Below are positions 1 through 60,153 of a DNA stretch of 64,000 bases, piece after piece. Both the position numbers and the translations under genes were made by a program. How positions within the stretch are numbered: the stretch's first letter is position 1; every line of letters starts with the position of its first letter. Under the pieces are notes generated by a model, which saw only the letters and a program-made list of their open reading frames with translations, was not told the origin of the DNA and made no database searches. Source of the DNA: Siniperca chuatsi (Eukaryota; Chordata; Actinopteri; Centrarchiformes; Sinipercidae); assembly GCF_020085105.1 (NCBI RefSeq), contig NC_058046.1, forward strand, positions 25,176,675 to 25,240,674, given 5' to 3'.

Positions 1-672
1 ATCGTTATTGCCATGATTAATCCGTCATGCCTGTAATAATGAACAGTTTGGTGTGTCGTCGGTCCTAGGCCTCCTGCTAGCCTTCGTGCTGTCTATAACA
101 TTAGCTAGCTAGCTAGCTGACTAATAGAAACGTGTTGTTCTTCGTTACTCTTTGGTGTTTACCCATTCAATTCCGCTGTCACATACTTGAATTTTCCTTT
201 AAAACATTAAATAGTCATTTTGAGAAGACGTGTCTGGCTAACCAGTAAATCGGCTCCTCTGTACTATGGTGCTAACTTTCGCTAACGTTCCTTGTCATGC
301 CTCTTCTGCATTGGAGATTGCTGTGGTCTTTAGCAGTCTACCAAAGAAATGTAGTAGTTTCTAGTATGGCTGTGATGTTTTCTGCTCTTTACCAATGCAC
401 TGTGTAATATGGTTGTGGTATTTTCTGCTGTCTCACTGCATTGTGTAGTGCAGATTAAGAACACTATTTACTTGAAGGCTAGAGTAGTCATTGATACAGT
501 GCTAGTCTTCTGTAGTTGATACCAGAACCACAGTCCTATGGAGCAGTATACAATGCACTGTCCATTCAAGGCTTAAATATTGTTTTGGAGATTCTTAACT
601 ACATCAAATAAATGCTCTGACATTGTGCACAACATTTCTTGGTATACTAACATCTGTCTTACTTTGTGTCAG
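1..672. other. Upstream/first-intron sequence of rpl6
   Basis: This stretch ends in a splice acceptor (CAG at 670-672) directly before the rpl6 start codon, so its right part is intron following a non-coding first exon. I could not place that first exon or a pyrimidine-rich start site with confidence; it may lie left of the window. An (AGCT)n run near 105-120 and a degenerate tandem duplication at 365-447 are the only structures seen. Confidence 0.5.
365..447. repeat. Degenerate tandem duplication, two ~42-base units
   Basis: The units 365-407 and 408-447 both start TATGG(C/T)TGTG(A/G)T, share TTTTCTGCT in the middle and end in (C/T)TGTGTA. They lie in intronic sequence before rpl6 coding exon 1. 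I saw no snoRNA boxes that would explain the repeat. Confidence 0.5.
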
Positions 673-3909
<3,237 letters not shown>

Positions 3910-4821: not shown

Positions 4822-6264
<1,443 letters not shown>

Positions 6265-6852
6265 GGTTGCCCTGGGAAACCAAAACACAGCAGAGGATTT
6301 ATCATCTTCACAGGCTCATTGGCACACACACAATGCAATCGACTCTAGACTCGACTCCCAACAGTCATCAGTGATTGACTTAAACGGTACTGTATGCATA
6401 AAGGGTCTCGTCAGCCAGTAAAGAAAAAGAAACGGTTAGTTAGTGACGAAGCTATCATTACATAATCACATCACATCACATCACATTATATTTGAACTAG
6501 CCATTTCTACAGGTGTTGCATAACAACTTCCATCAGCGGCAATCTGATGCGCGCTCTGCGTAGTTTCTATGGATACGCAAGACATTTAAGATTATCGTCT
6601 CAAATTTACCCGAGGTTTCAACAAGAATCCTATTAAATATGATGCTGCAAAATGAAAGCACATTTCTGCAACTAACGTTACCTAACGCCAGAAAGTAGCG
6701 AAAAAACAAGCTTTATCTGCTTCAACGTGCAAAATAAACACTCCATTCTCATAATAATATAACGTTTGGCATAAATATGACTTTACATTGTCTGAAGTAA
6801 CGTAACGGTGTCATATGAAGATGGGTTTGCTAACAACACCTCGAGCTTTTCA

Positions 6853-15377: not shown

Positions 15378-17539
15378 TTAGGAATCTATTTTTATATAAA
15401 CTTTGTCCCTGGAGAATATTTTAATGGCCTCCTCGATTTCAGAAAGCCTACAATCAAGATGAGCCCGACGTGAGCGAACACTCAGACTGTCAGCTTTGAG
15501 AGGCAGCGACAGCAGCTCAGTCACCAGGGAGCGATGCGCTGAGGGGGAAAAAAATTAGCACCAAGAGAATTAGAGAAGCAAATATTCACTATACATATTG
15601 TACTTTAATGCTGCCATCATTAATGTAAGTGCAGGGATAAAGAGCAACAGAGACATACTCTCTTTGAGGGACTTCAGTGTCTCTCGTCTCTCACTCTCAG
15701 GTATCAGGGTGTGACCAGCTGGGATTGTAGGATCAGGTGTGTTCCTCCTCCTCTCCTCCTCCTCTTTATGCCACTGCTCCTTCCTTTCCTCAAGACTGAT
15801 TGTGTTTAATTGTCAATGAGAAGGAGAACAGAAACAAGCAAAAAATGTCAAAATCCACCTGTGGTAAAGAATCACGTTATTACCAAATTGGCTGGTTGAT
15901 TATGACTGTAAGGAAGGAGGTAAGATATGGAATACGAATACTCACTACTGAGGCACCTGTCCCTTGACTGCGCTGGGGACAGGCTTATCTCTAAGGTTTG
16001 TCAGTGACTGGGACCGACGCAGCACAGTTTTTCGTGCAGCCCGGGCATTATGTTTTATGAAGTCTATGGTCTGGCCTTGCACCTGTAACTGTAACCATAT
16101 ATAACAATGTATAGAATTAAAACAAAAAGTAAACATTGCAGATACACATCAAAGTGAGCAAAATGCATGTTCATGTTATTTGTTTAATAGATAATTTTGC
16201 AGAAAAAGACAAGAGTTGCAAACCCTACTCTTCTCCTTACAACTTCTTTGACAGAAAAAATATGGTGAAATCAATATACTATACCTGTTATTGTCTGATC
16301 ATGTGAGTGTTTATCAGTAAGTAAACATTTACTGGTAATTCTCACTTGCAAGTTTTGGTCCTGTGTAGAGTTGCAGGAGGACGGGTGTTGCAAAGCTACA
16401 GGAGAGGTTTTGGAGCGTGGTCTTGGTGGGACAGTAGATCCACCATTAGAGTGGGCCTTCAGAAAGTTTTGACACTGTGGTTTAGCAGTTGGACTGGAAA
16501 CCTACACGAAAGAGACTGGATTAAAAGTGTTCCAGAGGAAATATTCATAACTCAAGGGCATCTTTTGCAGACATGCTCCTTACCTGTAGCTGGACCATCA
16601 CCCTGGATGGGACGTTCTCATATTTGGAGGAGGTCCAAAGAGCTTTGACTGGAACTGGACGAGACTGTGCTCTCTCAGCCTCCTGCTCTTTGCAGCGTCT
16701 CTGGATCTCCCTGAGCCGACGCACATTCTCTTTACCAAAGTCATGTACCCGCTGTTCTGAGGGTCAAGAATTGCAAAAGTTGTCTCAATTACTTTATAAT
16801 TTTTATACGTGATTAGTGTGCTTGATCAAACTCTCTTTCTTGCTATAACAACAAACAAATGGAAAAACTAGAAATAACACACTGATAGCATCAGTCAAGA
16901 CAATACAGAGCCATTTTTTTGGTATAGTACACATTTACAGACCTGAAAAATCAATTGCACTTACTCTGTTTGGGAACAGGGGTGATAGAGACACCATCTA
17001 GTTTGAGTAGTTCCCCCACTACCCCTCTCCGTCCTCGTTCCAGAATATGAGTGGCATTAGGGCTAATACGGGGAGGATGTGCTGGGGTACGAGCACTGTA
17101 GCAGCCAGGGTACAACACAGGATCTGGAGCGAGTTGCCCTGAGAGCAGGGACAAAGTCCCATCGTGGTGTCCTTCTAAACGGCCACGAGCTGAAGAAAAA
17201 AAGAAAAACTAAACAAGGTCCCTTGAGGCTAATGTTTTGCTCAAAAAAAAAAAAATATAGTATAAAAAAACGTGTCCTCAAACACTGGAAGAGAAGATGT
17301 TCTAAAATAGCAGATTCCTACACGTGATGGATCTGGGGCCTCATTTATTAAAAGCACTCATTGATGTCAATAGACTAACTCCAAAAAATTCACAATGGTT
17401 CTAACAATTCAAGTTGTGTTGGTGTGATATCAACAAAAGGAGAAATCATCTAACCTGAAGCAGGTCGTTTGTAGTACTGAGGAAACAGAGAAGGATCCGG
17501 GGGGATTGGCCCAGATATCGATGAAGGTCCCTCACACAT
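15378..17539 (-). CDS. enkd1: Enkurin domain-containing protein 1, seven coding exons
   Basis: Microtubule, centrosome and basal-body protein implicated in ciliogenesis and spindle orientation. Exons: 17455-17539, 16965-17189, 16584-16756, 16346-16501, 15946-16088 (or 15946-16082), 15659-15795, 15378-15538; 359 aa against 346 in human. The N-terminus MCEGPSSISGPIPPDPSLFP is nearly identical to human. Further matches are ASARGRLEG, ILERGRRGVVGELL, KENVRRLREIQRR, VKALWTSSKYENVPSRV, NFLKAHSNGG and VQGQTIDFIKHNARAARK. The C-terminal enkurin domain has VPQYLEERKEQW, ERRETLKSLKE, ELLSLPLKADSLSVRSRRAHLD and EIEEAIKIFSR. Exon 5 has two tandem acceptors six bases apart, adding or omitting Leu-Gln. A non-coding first exon should lie near 18.1 kb. 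Human ENKD1 is on 16q22, not beside POLB, so this placement is notable. Confidence 0.92.
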
Positions 17540-25068: not shown

Positions 25069-25170
25069 TTAATTATGCATTTAGACAGACTGATGCAGTG
25101 AAGTATTGTGATTTTATTATTGTGAAGAAATTGTAAAATCTTAATGTGCATGTCTGTTTCCTCAGGCACA

Positions 25171-28100
25171 ATGACCGTACCTCCTGCATACTCAGACTTG
25201 GGGAAATCTGCCAAAGACATCTTCAACAAGGGCTATGGTAATTCAACAAATTCTCTTAACATATACATATATGATTGCTATGATGTTGCTATTTTGTTTA
25301 AACAGTTTTGGGTGAAGCTGTGCTGAAGCAGGACTGATATTAGAGAACATTTTGCTTGCTCTGTCACTTTAAATGTAGGCTGTTTATTTTTGCTGCAGCT
25401 GTTTTAGAGCCATGCTGTGCAGTACAAGGATGTAAGTTGTTTTCCCACCCTTTCTGTTCTTTTGAATTTCCCTAATTGAATTTCTTCACAGGCTATGGTG
25501 TTCTCAAGCTGGACGTTAAGACCAAGTCCAGGAGTGGTGTTGTAAGTGCTACTGTTGTCTCTGTCTCTGTTATCTCTCAGTGCTCTGTGATGTAGATCAA
25601 ATGGCTGACTAATGGCCTTGTGTTTGCTGCCTGACATGTACTCTGTCTAACCTAGCAGTAACACTGTCTGTCTGACAAGTTTACACCTTACTCTTCTCCC
25701 TCAAGCAACATGCCCTATCATGATGGGGAAAAATGTGTTTAGTTTGCCCCAGACATGCTGAGTGTCAGTGTCACAATAAACCTGTTGCTATGGTAAAACC
25801 ATAATGAGCACTTGCATACAGAGTTTCCCACATGCCACAAAACTCAAACCTCATTGAAAAAAAATCTATTCCCTCTGCGTCTAAACTCACAAGTTTCCGC
25901 TTTCTGTTGCGCTGCTTTTTATTTTCGCAGTGAGCGGATAAATTGCTGCATGTAAACTCTGAGTGGTTCTCCCTAACTTTCTCTCTTTTCTCTTTTTTCT
26001 GCTTTCTTCTTTGGATGTTCCTGTCAGATGGTAAGAGTGAGTGCGTGTGCATATGTAATGATTAAACACAGGTGCACCGCAGGGTAAGCCAGTGATACCA
26101 GTTATGTGTTTGTGTGCAGACGATGTATCCAGGCTTTCTACCAAGTGTTTCTTCATTATCCCAGCTGCTGCGGCCGCAACCACTGATCCTCAAATACACT
26201 CACAACCTACCTCTCCCTCACAGTCCTGCCTAAATTTTCCTTTCCAACTCATTTCTCCATCTTAAAAGGTGTAGTTCTTCCTTTAAATAACCAGCCATAC
26301 AAACCTGAGAGGGATTGTGTGGCAGAGGAAAAAGCAGAGAAGCTATGCTTATTTCCCTCGTCTTTGTTTTTTCTTATTTTTTCTCCCTGTATGCTTTCTC
26401 CTTCTAGTTTCTGTGGTTGTGCTCTAATGTAAAAATGTGCCTTCCCACCTCATTTTCCATCTCCATCTCCCCCCTCATCACTCCATCCCTCTTTGTCCTG
26501 CAGGAGTTTGCCACCTCTGGCTCCAACAACACCGACACAGGGAAGTCAGGAGGCCACCTGGAGACCAAGTACAAACTGAATGAACTGGGCCTCAACTTCA
26601 ACCAGAAATGGAACACAGACAATACTCTCACCACAGAAATCACCATGGAGGACCAGGTGGAGTCAAACAAACAAGATATTAGTCATTTTAAGTACTTAAA
26701 GAATATATGACAGGATTTTACTTTACTAGCCTATTTAAAATGTTCAAAACATCAATATATTTACTTTCAGATAGAATTTTAGCTCATGGTCTGTGTCTCT
26801 TGTCTGGTTGTCTGTCCATAGCTGGCTAAGGGCCTGAAGCTCAGTTTGGACACGTCGTTTGTGCCCAACACCGGGTAAGAGCAATCCTGTTCATGTTAAG
26901 TAGTTTTCAATGTCTTCAATAAATTGACCACAAAGTGAATAAATTAGTCAATCAACACAGAAGTATATTATAAACATATTAATAATGCAGTACTGCTAAT
27001 TACTGAATTGTTATTCCTTCTGTAGCAAGAAGAGTGCCAAACTGAAGACTGGCTACAAGCGTGATTTTGTCAATGTGGGCTGCGACCTGGACTTCGACAT
27101 GGCAGGTCCCACCGTCCACGCAGCTGCTGTACTGGGCTTCGAGGGCTGGCTGGCTGGCTACCAGTTGGCTTTTGACACTGCCAAATCTAAACTGACCCAA
27201 AACAACTTTGCCCTTGGATACAAGGCCGGTGACTTCCAGCTTCACACCAACGTGTGAGTCACTGCATCACAGTAAAGAGAGGCAGGAAATGGAAGTGATA
27301 CATTGGACGAGGGCAGCAATGAGAGAGGAAGCATTTCCCCAGGATGAAACGCAAAGTTCAGGCTAATATCCACTGCTGCTAATCTCCACCGTTTTTATCT
27401 GTGTTTTGCTTTTGTATTTCAGTAACGACGGCACAGAGTTTGGTGGCTCCATTTACCAAAAGGTGAACAGCAACTTGGAGACAGCGATCCACCTGGCCTG
27501 GACAGCTGGCAGCAACAACACACGCTTTGGAATTGGAGCCAAATACCAGCTGGATAAGGATGCCTCCCTGTCTGTAAGAACTGACTTCAAAACATCATGG
27601 ACACATCTAAAATGATTAAAAAAAAAAATAAATCACATTTGCTAATTAGCACTAAACACAAAGTACAGCGGAGGCTGATGGGAATGTCATTAGTTTTGCA
27701 GGTATTTGGTGACAAACTGAAGTATCTGACAAAGTGAAATGTGACCTGATAATACCAGTAAATGGAAAGTCAGAGGATCGCCAAAGTAGGATTCGTCCTT
27801 TGGGGACCATTAATGTCTGTACTAAATTTCATGGCCATCTATCCAATATTTGTTGAGATATTTCAGTCTGGACCAAAGTGGTGGACTGACGGACCAACAG
27901 GCCGACATTGCCAACCCTAGATCCACACCGAAACTTAGGTTTCAAGCTATCATCGAACTTATCTGCAGTTGTTGACTTGAGGTTGATATATATGATATAA
28001 ATTATATAACTGCATCCCAGTTCTCATCTATCTACACTCCTAATGCTGTGTCCATGATTATCTCAACTGTCCTTGATGTTTTGTTTCTCCTCACAGACCA

Positions 28101-28337
28101 AAGTTGACAACGCCTGCCTCGTTGGAGTTGGATACACACAAACCCTCAGGCCAGGTTAGCTGATTGTCTTTTTTTATTGTCTAACAACAATCCAAAGAAC
28201 ACAGGCATGGTTACTTGATACATAATCTGACACTCTTCCCTGCAGGAGTGAAGCTCACCCTCTCAGGTCTGATTGACGGGAAGAACGTGAACAGCGGTGG
28301 ACACAAAGTCGGCATGGGTTTCGAGCTGGAGGCGTAA
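25171..28337 (+). CDS. vdac3: Voltage-dependent anion channel 3, eight coding exons
   Basis: Outer-mitochondrial-membrane beta-barrel porin for metabolites. Coding exons: 25171-25237, 25492-25541, 26504-26656, 26822-26874, 27026-27253, 27423-27573, 28097-28154, 28246-28337; 283 aa, the exact family length. It begins with the amphipathic helix [20 protein letters not shown]. It has the LAKGLKL (GLK) motif, [51 protein letters not shown] and [15 protein letters not shown], and ends [11 protein letters not shown]. Isoform 3 is favoured over 1 and 2 by Gln at position 73 (Glu in VDAC1 and 2), by FVPNTGKKS and [19 protein letters not shown], and by linkage to polb, ikbkb and plat. The N-terminal Cys residues of mammalian VDAC3 are absent. 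A 3-nt alternative exon lies in the intron after codon 39. Confidence 0.95.
26028..26030 (+). CDS. vdac3: Alternative 3-nucleotide microexon (ATG) of vdac3
   Basis: Within the 962-base intron between codons 39 and 40, a long pyrimidine tract ends in CCTGTCAG, followed by ATG and a strong donor GTAAGAG. Splicing in this triplet inserts one Met between V39 and E40 without a frame change. Mammalian VDAC3 has an alternatively used 3-base ATG exon at the same place. Both halves of the split intron (486 and 473 bases) are long enough to splice. Confidence 0.75.
27765..27935. repeat. Dispersed fish repeat, copy 1 (vdac3 intron)
   Basis: Contains GGATCGCCAAAGTAGGATTC, then TTTGGGGACCATTAATGTCT, GAGATATTTCAGTCTGGACC and a GGACTGACGGACC motif. 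A diverged copy of the same family lies at 48245-48390. The class is not determinable; it may be the tail of a LINE or a MITE body. Confidence 0.65.
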
Positions 28338-57400: not shown

Positions 57401-60153
57401 TGTAAACAATTTAAACTCAAGGTTTTGACCCTTGTGCCTGTTTTCTTTATGAGGCTGTTGTAAGCTCATAGTCGCTGCCAGTTACACCCAAATCCTCACA
57501 GATATCACTGATTATTTTGATTACTGTTCTGTAATGAGCGATCACATTTGACACCTTCAGAATTTTTATAAAATGCATTTTGTAACAGAAATTCTCCAGG
57601 CAAACCTAAATTCATATGAAATATTTCTGCATTTTCAAGTAGCCCTAGTTATCCTGAAAAAGAAAATACGCAATACGCCTATTTTTGAAGCTAATAAGTC
57701 ATATAAACGCAAGTAACACAAAACCACAGCTAAGAGTAGATCACCTCGAGGAAGTTAGCTCCACTATATACTACATAAAACTAAAGAAGAGTTTTACTTT
57801 GTATCCTGTAAATGAGACATGTTTATTTTGTGTGTTTGTATGTCTGTTCGTATGCATTAAATGGGATTGTTGAAGGAGCAGTGTTTGATGGCGCCCCAAA
57901 CGGGGCCTCTGCATGTCAGACGTCACAGACTTTAAAAAGGGTGGGACACATATGTTTATATCTGATATCTGTGCATGTTGGTATGTGTTTTTGTGTGTGC
58001 ATGAGTTGATATGTACGCATGTTTCCGAAATGCACGGGGCCCGTATTGGCAGTATTTTAGCAGGAAACACATGTTTTCAGCTGACAGGGCTGGAGAGAGG
58101 GGCGACTGGACGGAGCTGAACAGCTGCACAAAGGAAACAAAAAGGAAACTAGTGTGTTGTTGTCGCCCTGCCAGAGAGGCTCAGTTAGGGGGTAAAAGCA
58201 CAGGTCAATAGGGTTTTTTTTTGTCTGAGGCAAGGACAGCTTTCAAGGGTCCTCTTAATGGTGAGTGTGCGAATGCATGTGTGTGTCTGTGTTTTAAACT
58301 TGTTTTCAAAGTCAAATCGTGAGAGGGAGTCTTTGTTCAAATGATCAATGAGCAGAATGAACAGTAAACCTTTGTGTGTAGGGCTGTTAATTAGCTCCAC
58401 GTTCCTGAGCCCTTTGTGTAATGTGTGTGTGAGAGAGTATGTGTGTATGTGTGTGCGGCTGCCAGCGTAGCTGTTTTATCTCACTGATATATCATAACAG
58501 AGCGCTGTTTTCTATTTGCCCAGTCAGCCACAGAAGGTGAGTCAGTGAAGAACCAGCCGACAGAGAGGAGAGTATAAAAATGTACAGGCATGGAGGCACA
58601 TGGTTATTGCAGTATGTCTGGGTCTTTGCAGGCATGTGTCTGTAGAAGACGTTTCTAAACGGTTATTTTTAAAACATCTTGGAAGTTCTTTATATTGAGG
58701 TCATTGTGTGCAACTTTCTTTTTCTTCTCTCTCCCATTTTCCTCTCTACTCTGTCTTCCACTCACCCCCTCTTTCTTTTGTGACTCATGTTTACTCACAC
58801 TTGACTGAGGAGCAACAGGCGCTTTGCTCTATACCTCTTTACTCCTTTGACTCCTTCATAACAGAGAAGAGGAACAAGTCTGATATCAGACATCTTTTTC
58901 TGGAAGTATAAAAGGGAAATATGAGTTTAGTTACTTTTTCTTGCTCCAGCTTCCTCTTCTGTTTCCTTCTCCTTCCCTTTAAAATCTTGACTCATGTTAT
59001 CCTCCTACAACTGCTGCTTTGCTCTGTTAGAGGAGGAATGCTGTCAGTATGGTGGAGAAACCTTCTGCTGTGCATACTGCCTTTAATCCCTCCAGGGTTG
59101 TCCAGATTGTGTTGTTTGATATGGTGGTCAGTGTCCCATTCTTTGCATAGAGGGAAGATAATCTACTTCCTGTTCATTCCCAGTGGGGAAGTTATAGATG
59201 AATTATGATAAAAGGGAAATGAATTTAAGCAGGACTACAAAGACATATACCACACACATTTGTTGAACTCATCCTCCTATCAGACTGTCCTGCACAGGCA
59301 GGGAAAACTTCCTGTCTGAGTCAAAAGTCAACACAACTTCAAGAAACTATAAATGGCCTCCAATTTCCCACAAGCTCCCCACCTTGCCCACCCTTTCCTC
59401 TCCAGTGGATTCACTCAGTAGCAGGCATAGGGATGGGGAAAGGAAGCTGAACAGAGAAACAGTATAGTGGGGGGAAGGTGACCAGGGTCGTTTGTTTTCC
59501 TGCAATTGTTGGCTCAGTATTAATGAGAGATTCATGACAAAAGAGATACACCAATGATCCATTCTCAGTCACTCACTCACCTTACTGTGCTGAACCTCTT
59601 ATTTTGTTAGAAATTGAAGGGAGTTTTCTCTGGGTTTACACTGGTGCCAATGTTTTCATTTTGGTTGTGTGTGTGTGTGTGTGTTATGTCAGTATTGATT
59701 GTTAATATTAGTGTGTTTGGGGACATACAAAGAACACATTTTTTAAAAAGGATGCAGGAAAGAAGTGCTGAATGTTCGGATTATTTACAACTTATTTGAC
59801 AATTTCAATTATTGCTCATTTACTACTTTGCAGTCTTTGTAGTGACATGCAGTCAGTTTGCCAGAATCAGATTTCGTATTGTACCCCCTTTAATACTATT
59901 TTGTCTAAAAAATTGAAACATTATTAAAAATGCTTACTAATGTTTAATGAAAGAATGTTATGACTGATCTGCGCAAATCTAATGTCATTTATTAATGGCC
60001 AGTCAGTCTTATGATTAGCCTATCGTGGTTTGTCTTTGTCTTTGCTTTTCTCAACACGCAACTTGTGTAGGTAAAAGTGCTTGCATATGTCGGTCTAAAC
60101 TGTATTAGTCTTAAGTCAGTTGTGTCTAATATGTATTTCTATTCCACTTCCAG
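54494..60153. other. plat intron 1
   Basis: Intron of about 5.7 kb between the leader exon and the signal-peptide exon. It contains (GT)n tracts at 56865-56890 and 59664-59684 and several pyrimidine-rich stretches. No conserved coding frame was seen. Confidence 0.6.

Follow-up and report, generated by a model that had tools for sequence, protein, structure and literature searches.

Whether the three-nucleotide exon of mammalian VDAC3 has a counterpart in fish is the question raised by an intron within a 64,000-nt stretch of the Siniperca chuatsi genome (the window, to whose positions the coordinates below refer unless another locus is named). The mammalian 3-base exon was reportedly described by Sampson et al. 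in 1998, and Decker and Craigen are said to have dealt with it as well in 2000. In the excerpts of a review (PMC8374620), it is given as a single-ATG exon that human VDAC3 has between exons 3 and 4 and that rat and mouse share. In the fish intron, the trinucleotide ATG at 26028-26030 (forward strand) is preceded by the acceptor CAG (26025-26027) and followed by the donor GTAAGAG (26031-26037), forming a candidate cassette microexon of phase 0 that, at one codon, would be among the smallest exons possible and would add a Met between Val39 and Glu40. Judged from the sequence, it is very probably orthologous to the known 3-nt ATG cassette exon that vertebrates have in VDAC3, and it would be included in neurons with the help of Srrm3/4, yielding an isoform with one additional Met.

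The gene that carries this intron is of the vdac3 type and its coding sequence extends on the forward strand from the start ATG at 25171 to 28337. Exon 2 (25166-25237, coding from the ATG, its acceptor identified by eye) is followed by exon 3 (25492-25541), whose last codon is codon 39, and by exon 4 (26504-26656), which begins with codon 40. Exons 5 to 8 occupy 26822-26874, 27026-27253, 27423-27573 and 28097-28154, and exon 9 (28246-28337) holds the stop codon. The encoded protein is a eukaryotic porin (Pfam Porin_3, 318 bits) whose top match in the PDB is zebrafish VDAC2, VDAC3 chains being absent from the PDB hits. Neighbouring genes include that of DNA polymerase beta and an open reading frame (ORF) for an IKK kinase, which scores 55.9 bits with IKK-beta, 55.5 with IKK-alpha and 60 with ubiquitin chains over its whole sequence, and which we read as IKBKB. 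DNA polymerase beta and an IKK kinase are also neighbours of human VDAC3. In a tree of eight rows, the window protein pairs with that of a second vdac3-type gene of the same genome (100/100), the rows of VDAC1 and VDAC2 standing outside this pair; when human VDAC3 is added, with its sequence entered by hand, the fish pair stands at 92/91 and the trio is weak, at 78/83. Neighbours and trees together identify the host gene as vdac3. Elsewhere in the window, a piece of an Enkurin domain lies between polb and vdac3 at 15570-15812 (reverse strand; E 8.9e-5, 23.3 bits against a Pfam cut-off of 23.6), and on the left side Pfam recognises an exon of ribosomal protein L6 at 577-837 (forward) and one of dynein light chain type 1 at 6046-6315 (reverse).

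The host intron is 962 nt long and of phase 0, separating codon 39 (GTT, ending exon 3 at 25541) from codon 40 (GAG, opening exon 4 at 26504), and the candidate divides it into 486 and 473 nt. With the microexon included, the spliced product reads ...SRSGV-M-EFATSG..., and a length of 3 nt that keeps the reading frame falls within the frame-preserving range of 3-27 nt used for eMIC exons. The arrangement CAG-ATG-GTAAGAG between codons 39 and 40, from which the earlier note had started, was thus found correct to the exact base (26025-26037). Because the window protein aligns with zebrafish VDAC2 (4bum) without gaps from residue 1 to 283, the Met would enter between residues 39 and 40, presumably at the start of strand 2, just past the first beta-hairpin turn of VDAC.

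Scored with a matrix of hand-set splice-site frequencies, not those of a tool, the acceptor of the ATG candidate reaches 7.8 and its donor 8.5, within the ranges of the seven scored acceptors (5.4 to 14.1) and the seven scored donors (3.4 to 9.5) of the vdac3 gene. These ranges leave out AG (26507, 27030, 28249) and GT (25537, 25539, 27252, 27570) dinucleotides that are not exon borders, as well as the acceptor of exon 2. Upstream, a CTAAC that matches the branch-point consensus (25973-25977, forward strand) places the branch A at -52, and the nearest AG before that of the acceptor is at -66. The intervening long pyrimidine tract is present as the earlier note had it (25976-26024, forward strand), with 86% pyrimidine, TCTC runs and no AG, although it is not rare in its own right: 12 non-overlapping 49-mers of at least 86% pyrimidine occur on the two strands of the 64 kb, its own included. 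A UGC at -28 (26000-26002, forward strand) is a weak candidate for an SRRM3/4 element, a single occurrence in about 35 nt being close to chance expectation. When the intron was scanned for exons of 3-27 nt with both sites scoring above 3, three candidates were obtained, of 3, 9 and 21 nt. The 21-nt candidate at 25931 (score 12.9) starts with an in-frame TGA and was rejected.

How far this site stands out from chance was approached at several scales. With a summed score of 16.2, it ranks second among the 494 AG-NNN-GT sites on both strands of the window, and the three other scored sites of this kind in the same intron reach at most -1.3. The highest-ranking AG-NNN-GT of the window encloses an AAG at 58534 (forward strand, score 17.2). 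Among 5000 dinucleotide shuffles of the 962-nt intron, 37 held an equally good AG-NNN-GT and 2 held one with ATG. Across the genome (718.8 Mb, both strands), the pattern YAGATGGTAAGA has 228 matches, against 129 for the reversed control, and its expected number on one strand of the vdac3 intron is 1.5e-4. The longer pattern CTAACN{38,62}CAGATGGTAAG has 4 matches against 7 for its control, and only in the match in the window is the span from branch point to acceptor free of AG (by eye). A further pattern, YYYYNYYYNYAGATGGTAAG, has 8 matches and its control 2; it misses the window site itself because two positions that it requires to be pyrimidine are G there. The genome patterns were picked with the site already known, and their figures are therefore generous; the place, the phase and the codon were set in advance by the mammalian exon. 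The ATG site exceeds chance expectation.

The genome holds five intron-bearing VDAC genes and one partial copy, and the second vdac3-type gene among them (locus L035, contig C18, 3.30 Mb), whose protein is 83% identical to that of the window over 252 columns, offers a second view of the intron. Its exon 3 ends in AGTGGAGTG and its exon 4 starts with GAGTTC; between them, in the homologous phase-0 intron after codon 39, lies a second ATG microexon candidate, TAG-ATG-GTAAGA (L035:4138-4140, equal to G000:C18:3300137-3300139, forward strand). With a score of 14.3, it is the best of the 16 AG-NNN-GT sites of this intron, the next reaching 5.2, and it lies 424 nt from exon 3, compared with 486 nt in the window gene. 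Shuffles of the 3331-nt intron held an equally good AG-NNN-GT in 115 of 3000 cases and one with ATG in 4 of 3000, while the expected number of YAGATGGTAAGA in it is 5e-4. A CTAAC puts the branch A at -60 with no AG up to the acceptor, so that CTAAC and a long AG-free zone are common to both vdac3 copies. The tract that follows is only 65% pyrimidine and the acceptor scores only 5.8; five UGC stand between CTAAC and ATG, at -55, -42, -39, -36 and -19. The two copies thus contrast in their upstream signals: the window copy has a long pyrimidine tract and a single UGC, whereas the duplicate is rich in UGC and less so in pyrimidines.

With MAFFT, the flanks of the two candidates (140 + 120 nt) could not be aligned convincingly, and the two ATGs were not placed in register; the homology of the latter therefore rests on their place, their phase, the distance from exon 3 and the signals. 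Within 49 kb around the duplicate, a torsin gene is present, and neither POLB nor IKK was seen by eye among the 45 longest ORFs, so that an origin of the pair in a whole-genome duplication is not established. A tentative proposal, possible but less likely than not, is that both duplicated vdac3 copies of S. chuatsi keep the 3-nt ATG microexon, with its regulation perhaps divided between them (repression of the PTB type in one and activation of the SRRM3/4 type in the other, or use in different tissues). If this is true, the selective value of one inserted Met becomes directly testable.

The remaining VDAC genes of the genome provide a comparison. The homologous introns of a vdac1-type gene (C14) and of a vdac2-type gene (C20) each contain one AG-NNN-GT, in neither case with ATG. 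Another vdac2-type gene (C11; L036 reverse complement, position 2887) has CAG-ATG-GTGCGG in the homologous intron, the best of 4 such sites there. Its score is a weak 10.6, it has no pyrimidine tract and other AGs are nearby; as a real counterpart it was rejected, being probably a product of chance or else a relic. Either such sites can arise by chance, or the exon predates VDAC3. A strong candidate is accordingly found in both of the two vdac3-type genes and in none of the three others (2/2 versus 0/3), the distribution to be expected if the exon is a feature of VDAC3. The partial copy (L039, G000:C18:16788688-16788924) encodes residues 205-283 as a single open frame that runs through positions of exon borders in the window gene, and it looks like a vdac2-type retrocopy. 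A search of viral contigs for relatives gave one pattern match, which tblastn did not confirm.

Against this background, other readings of the site have to be weighed. A competing tandem donor, GTGAGT at 26037-26042 (forward strand), would extend the exon to 9 nt (ATGGTAAGA, Met-Val-Arg), and the exon might have this length, or occur in both lengths if GTAAGA and GTGAGT are each used as donor. The longer exon is in frame and free of stops, and its donor scores 6.8, against 8.5 for GTAAGA; however, in the duplicate ATG-GTAAGA is followed by TCGGTGT, GTGAGT being absent at that place, and the mammalian exon is, in the excerpts of PMC8374620, a single ATG codon, which together make a 9-nt form improbable. 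It is less probable still that CAG and GTAAGA stand together by chance or as a decoy and never delimit a spliced exon, or that their role is confined to that of a decoy or a recursive site. Usage is not deducible from sequence alone, and shuffles of both introns do hold some sites as good as the real ones (the 37 of 5000 and 115 of 3000 mentioned above). Against this, both vdac3-type genes have the ATG itself where it was predicted to be, the numbers of YAGATGGTAAGA expected there (1.5e-4 and 5e-4) are small, and a microexon of zebrafish vdac3 is listed in the portions of PMC12626424 that bear on it.

The least probable of these readings is that the exon supplies an internal start from which a truncated VDAC3 without the N-terminal helix is made, an idea that the earlier note had raised as a possible second start. 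Once spliced, the ATG has G at both -3 and +4, and the excerpts of PMC8374620 report a shorter, truncated protein for the human transcript. Upstream of the microexon, however, there are two out-of-frame ATGs (frame +1), one at +64 and one at +70, both having G at positions -3 and +4. The ORFs that these open, of 43 and 41 codons, run past the microexon, and the main start has A at -3, which leaves the second start unlikely. On the mammalian side, the title of the paper by Decker and Craigen (2000) reportedly denies that a truncated VDAC3 protein exists in vivo; on this point the literature disagrees, the review excerpts answering yes and that title no. The reading preferred here remains the 3-nt cassette exon, in all likelihood orthologous to a neural microexon that is already known, which would place one Met early in the barrel.

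How such an exon could be recognised may be pictured as follows, in terms of what has been described for exons that depend on the eMIC (SRRM3/4). In the excerpts of PMC8797185, these are characterised by strong CUAAY branch points and longer tracts with UCUC, by UGC close to the 3' splice site and by an AG exclusion zone of considerable length. In cells to which SRRM4 was added, the downstream intron was removed first in 58% of SRRM4-dependent microexons and the upstream intron first in 26%, according to the excerpts of PMC10250204, whose authors propose that the U1 and U2 snRNPs hinder each other sterically; by analogy, such hindrance should apply fully to an exon of three bases. In S. chuatsi, most tissues would skip the microexon, whereas neurons would include it. 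U1 would bind the strong GTAAGA, and the downstream intron would be taken out first, joining the ATG to exon 4, given that the 3' splice site would be sterically hindered before that removal. Srrm3/4, probably acting through UGC and the AG-free tract, would then help early spliceosome factors to choose CAG in neurons. Inclusion would put one Met between Val39 and Glu40 and so give a neuronal channel isoform, not a truncated protein. Use of the exon in S. chuatsi, its regulators, the order of splicing and the effect on the protein are, in this scheme, what we infer.

The zebrafish literature bears directly on the novelty of the exon. A CRISPR study (PMC12626424, from its main text and appendix in part) lists in its Appendix 1 a deletion strain for vdac3_mic, which corresponds to VastDB EX0084235. 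It picked 21 highly conserved microexons, asking among other things for sharp neural inclusion, strong regulation by srrm3/4 and conservation of regulation in human, and checked all 21 by RT-PCR; spock3, pus7 and dock7 were later dropped, and the 18 remaining deletions showed no gross morphological abnormalities. Appendix 1 implies that vdac3 is among both the 21 and the 18, its name being absent from sections 5 and 6. The zebrafish microexon is very probably the 3-nt ATG exon, a strong inference, its length not appearing in the portions of the main text that were available. MicroExonator paired 402 microexons between mouse and zebrafish, of which 90.3% are equal in length (PMC7821500, in excerpt), and 'vdac' does not occur in the excerpted main text. 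For the 3-nt ATG exon of the window, homology with that of mammalian VDAC3 is supported by the same place, phase and codon, by the rarity of the site, by the candidate in the duplicate and by the zebrafish microexon. The conservation from fish to mammals that the earlier note had proposed is likewise supported, although it is not new, a zebrafish vdac3 microexon being already in print (PMC12626424, in part). For the second ATG microexon, that of the vdac3 duplicate, no published description was met among the best 20 of 1,434 matches, and a separate search for vdac3a or vdac3b gave no paper. The surroundings in raw sequence can thus reveal an exon of three bases, and a gene duplicate can back it up; the duplicate copy could also help to ask why a switch of a single residue has been retained by vertebrates in a channel of the mitochondrion.

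Compared with known systems, the candidate is closest to the single-ATG exon of mammalian VDAC3, with which it shares the gene, the intron and the codon, differing in being a candidate, seen in the DNA of a fish. Zebrafish EX0084235 belongs to a teleost vdac3 and to a set regulated by Srrm3/4 and conserved in human, and is very probably the same exon as the candidate; a second vdac3 gene is not mentioned in the relevant parts of that study (PMC12626424). Relative to eMIC microexons at large (PMC8797185 and PMC10250204, in excerpt), the window copy has only one UGC, near chance level, and its regulation is predicted from sequence; it has in common with them the AG-free zone, the CUAAY, the UCUC-rich tract and the strong donor, and perhaps the UGC.
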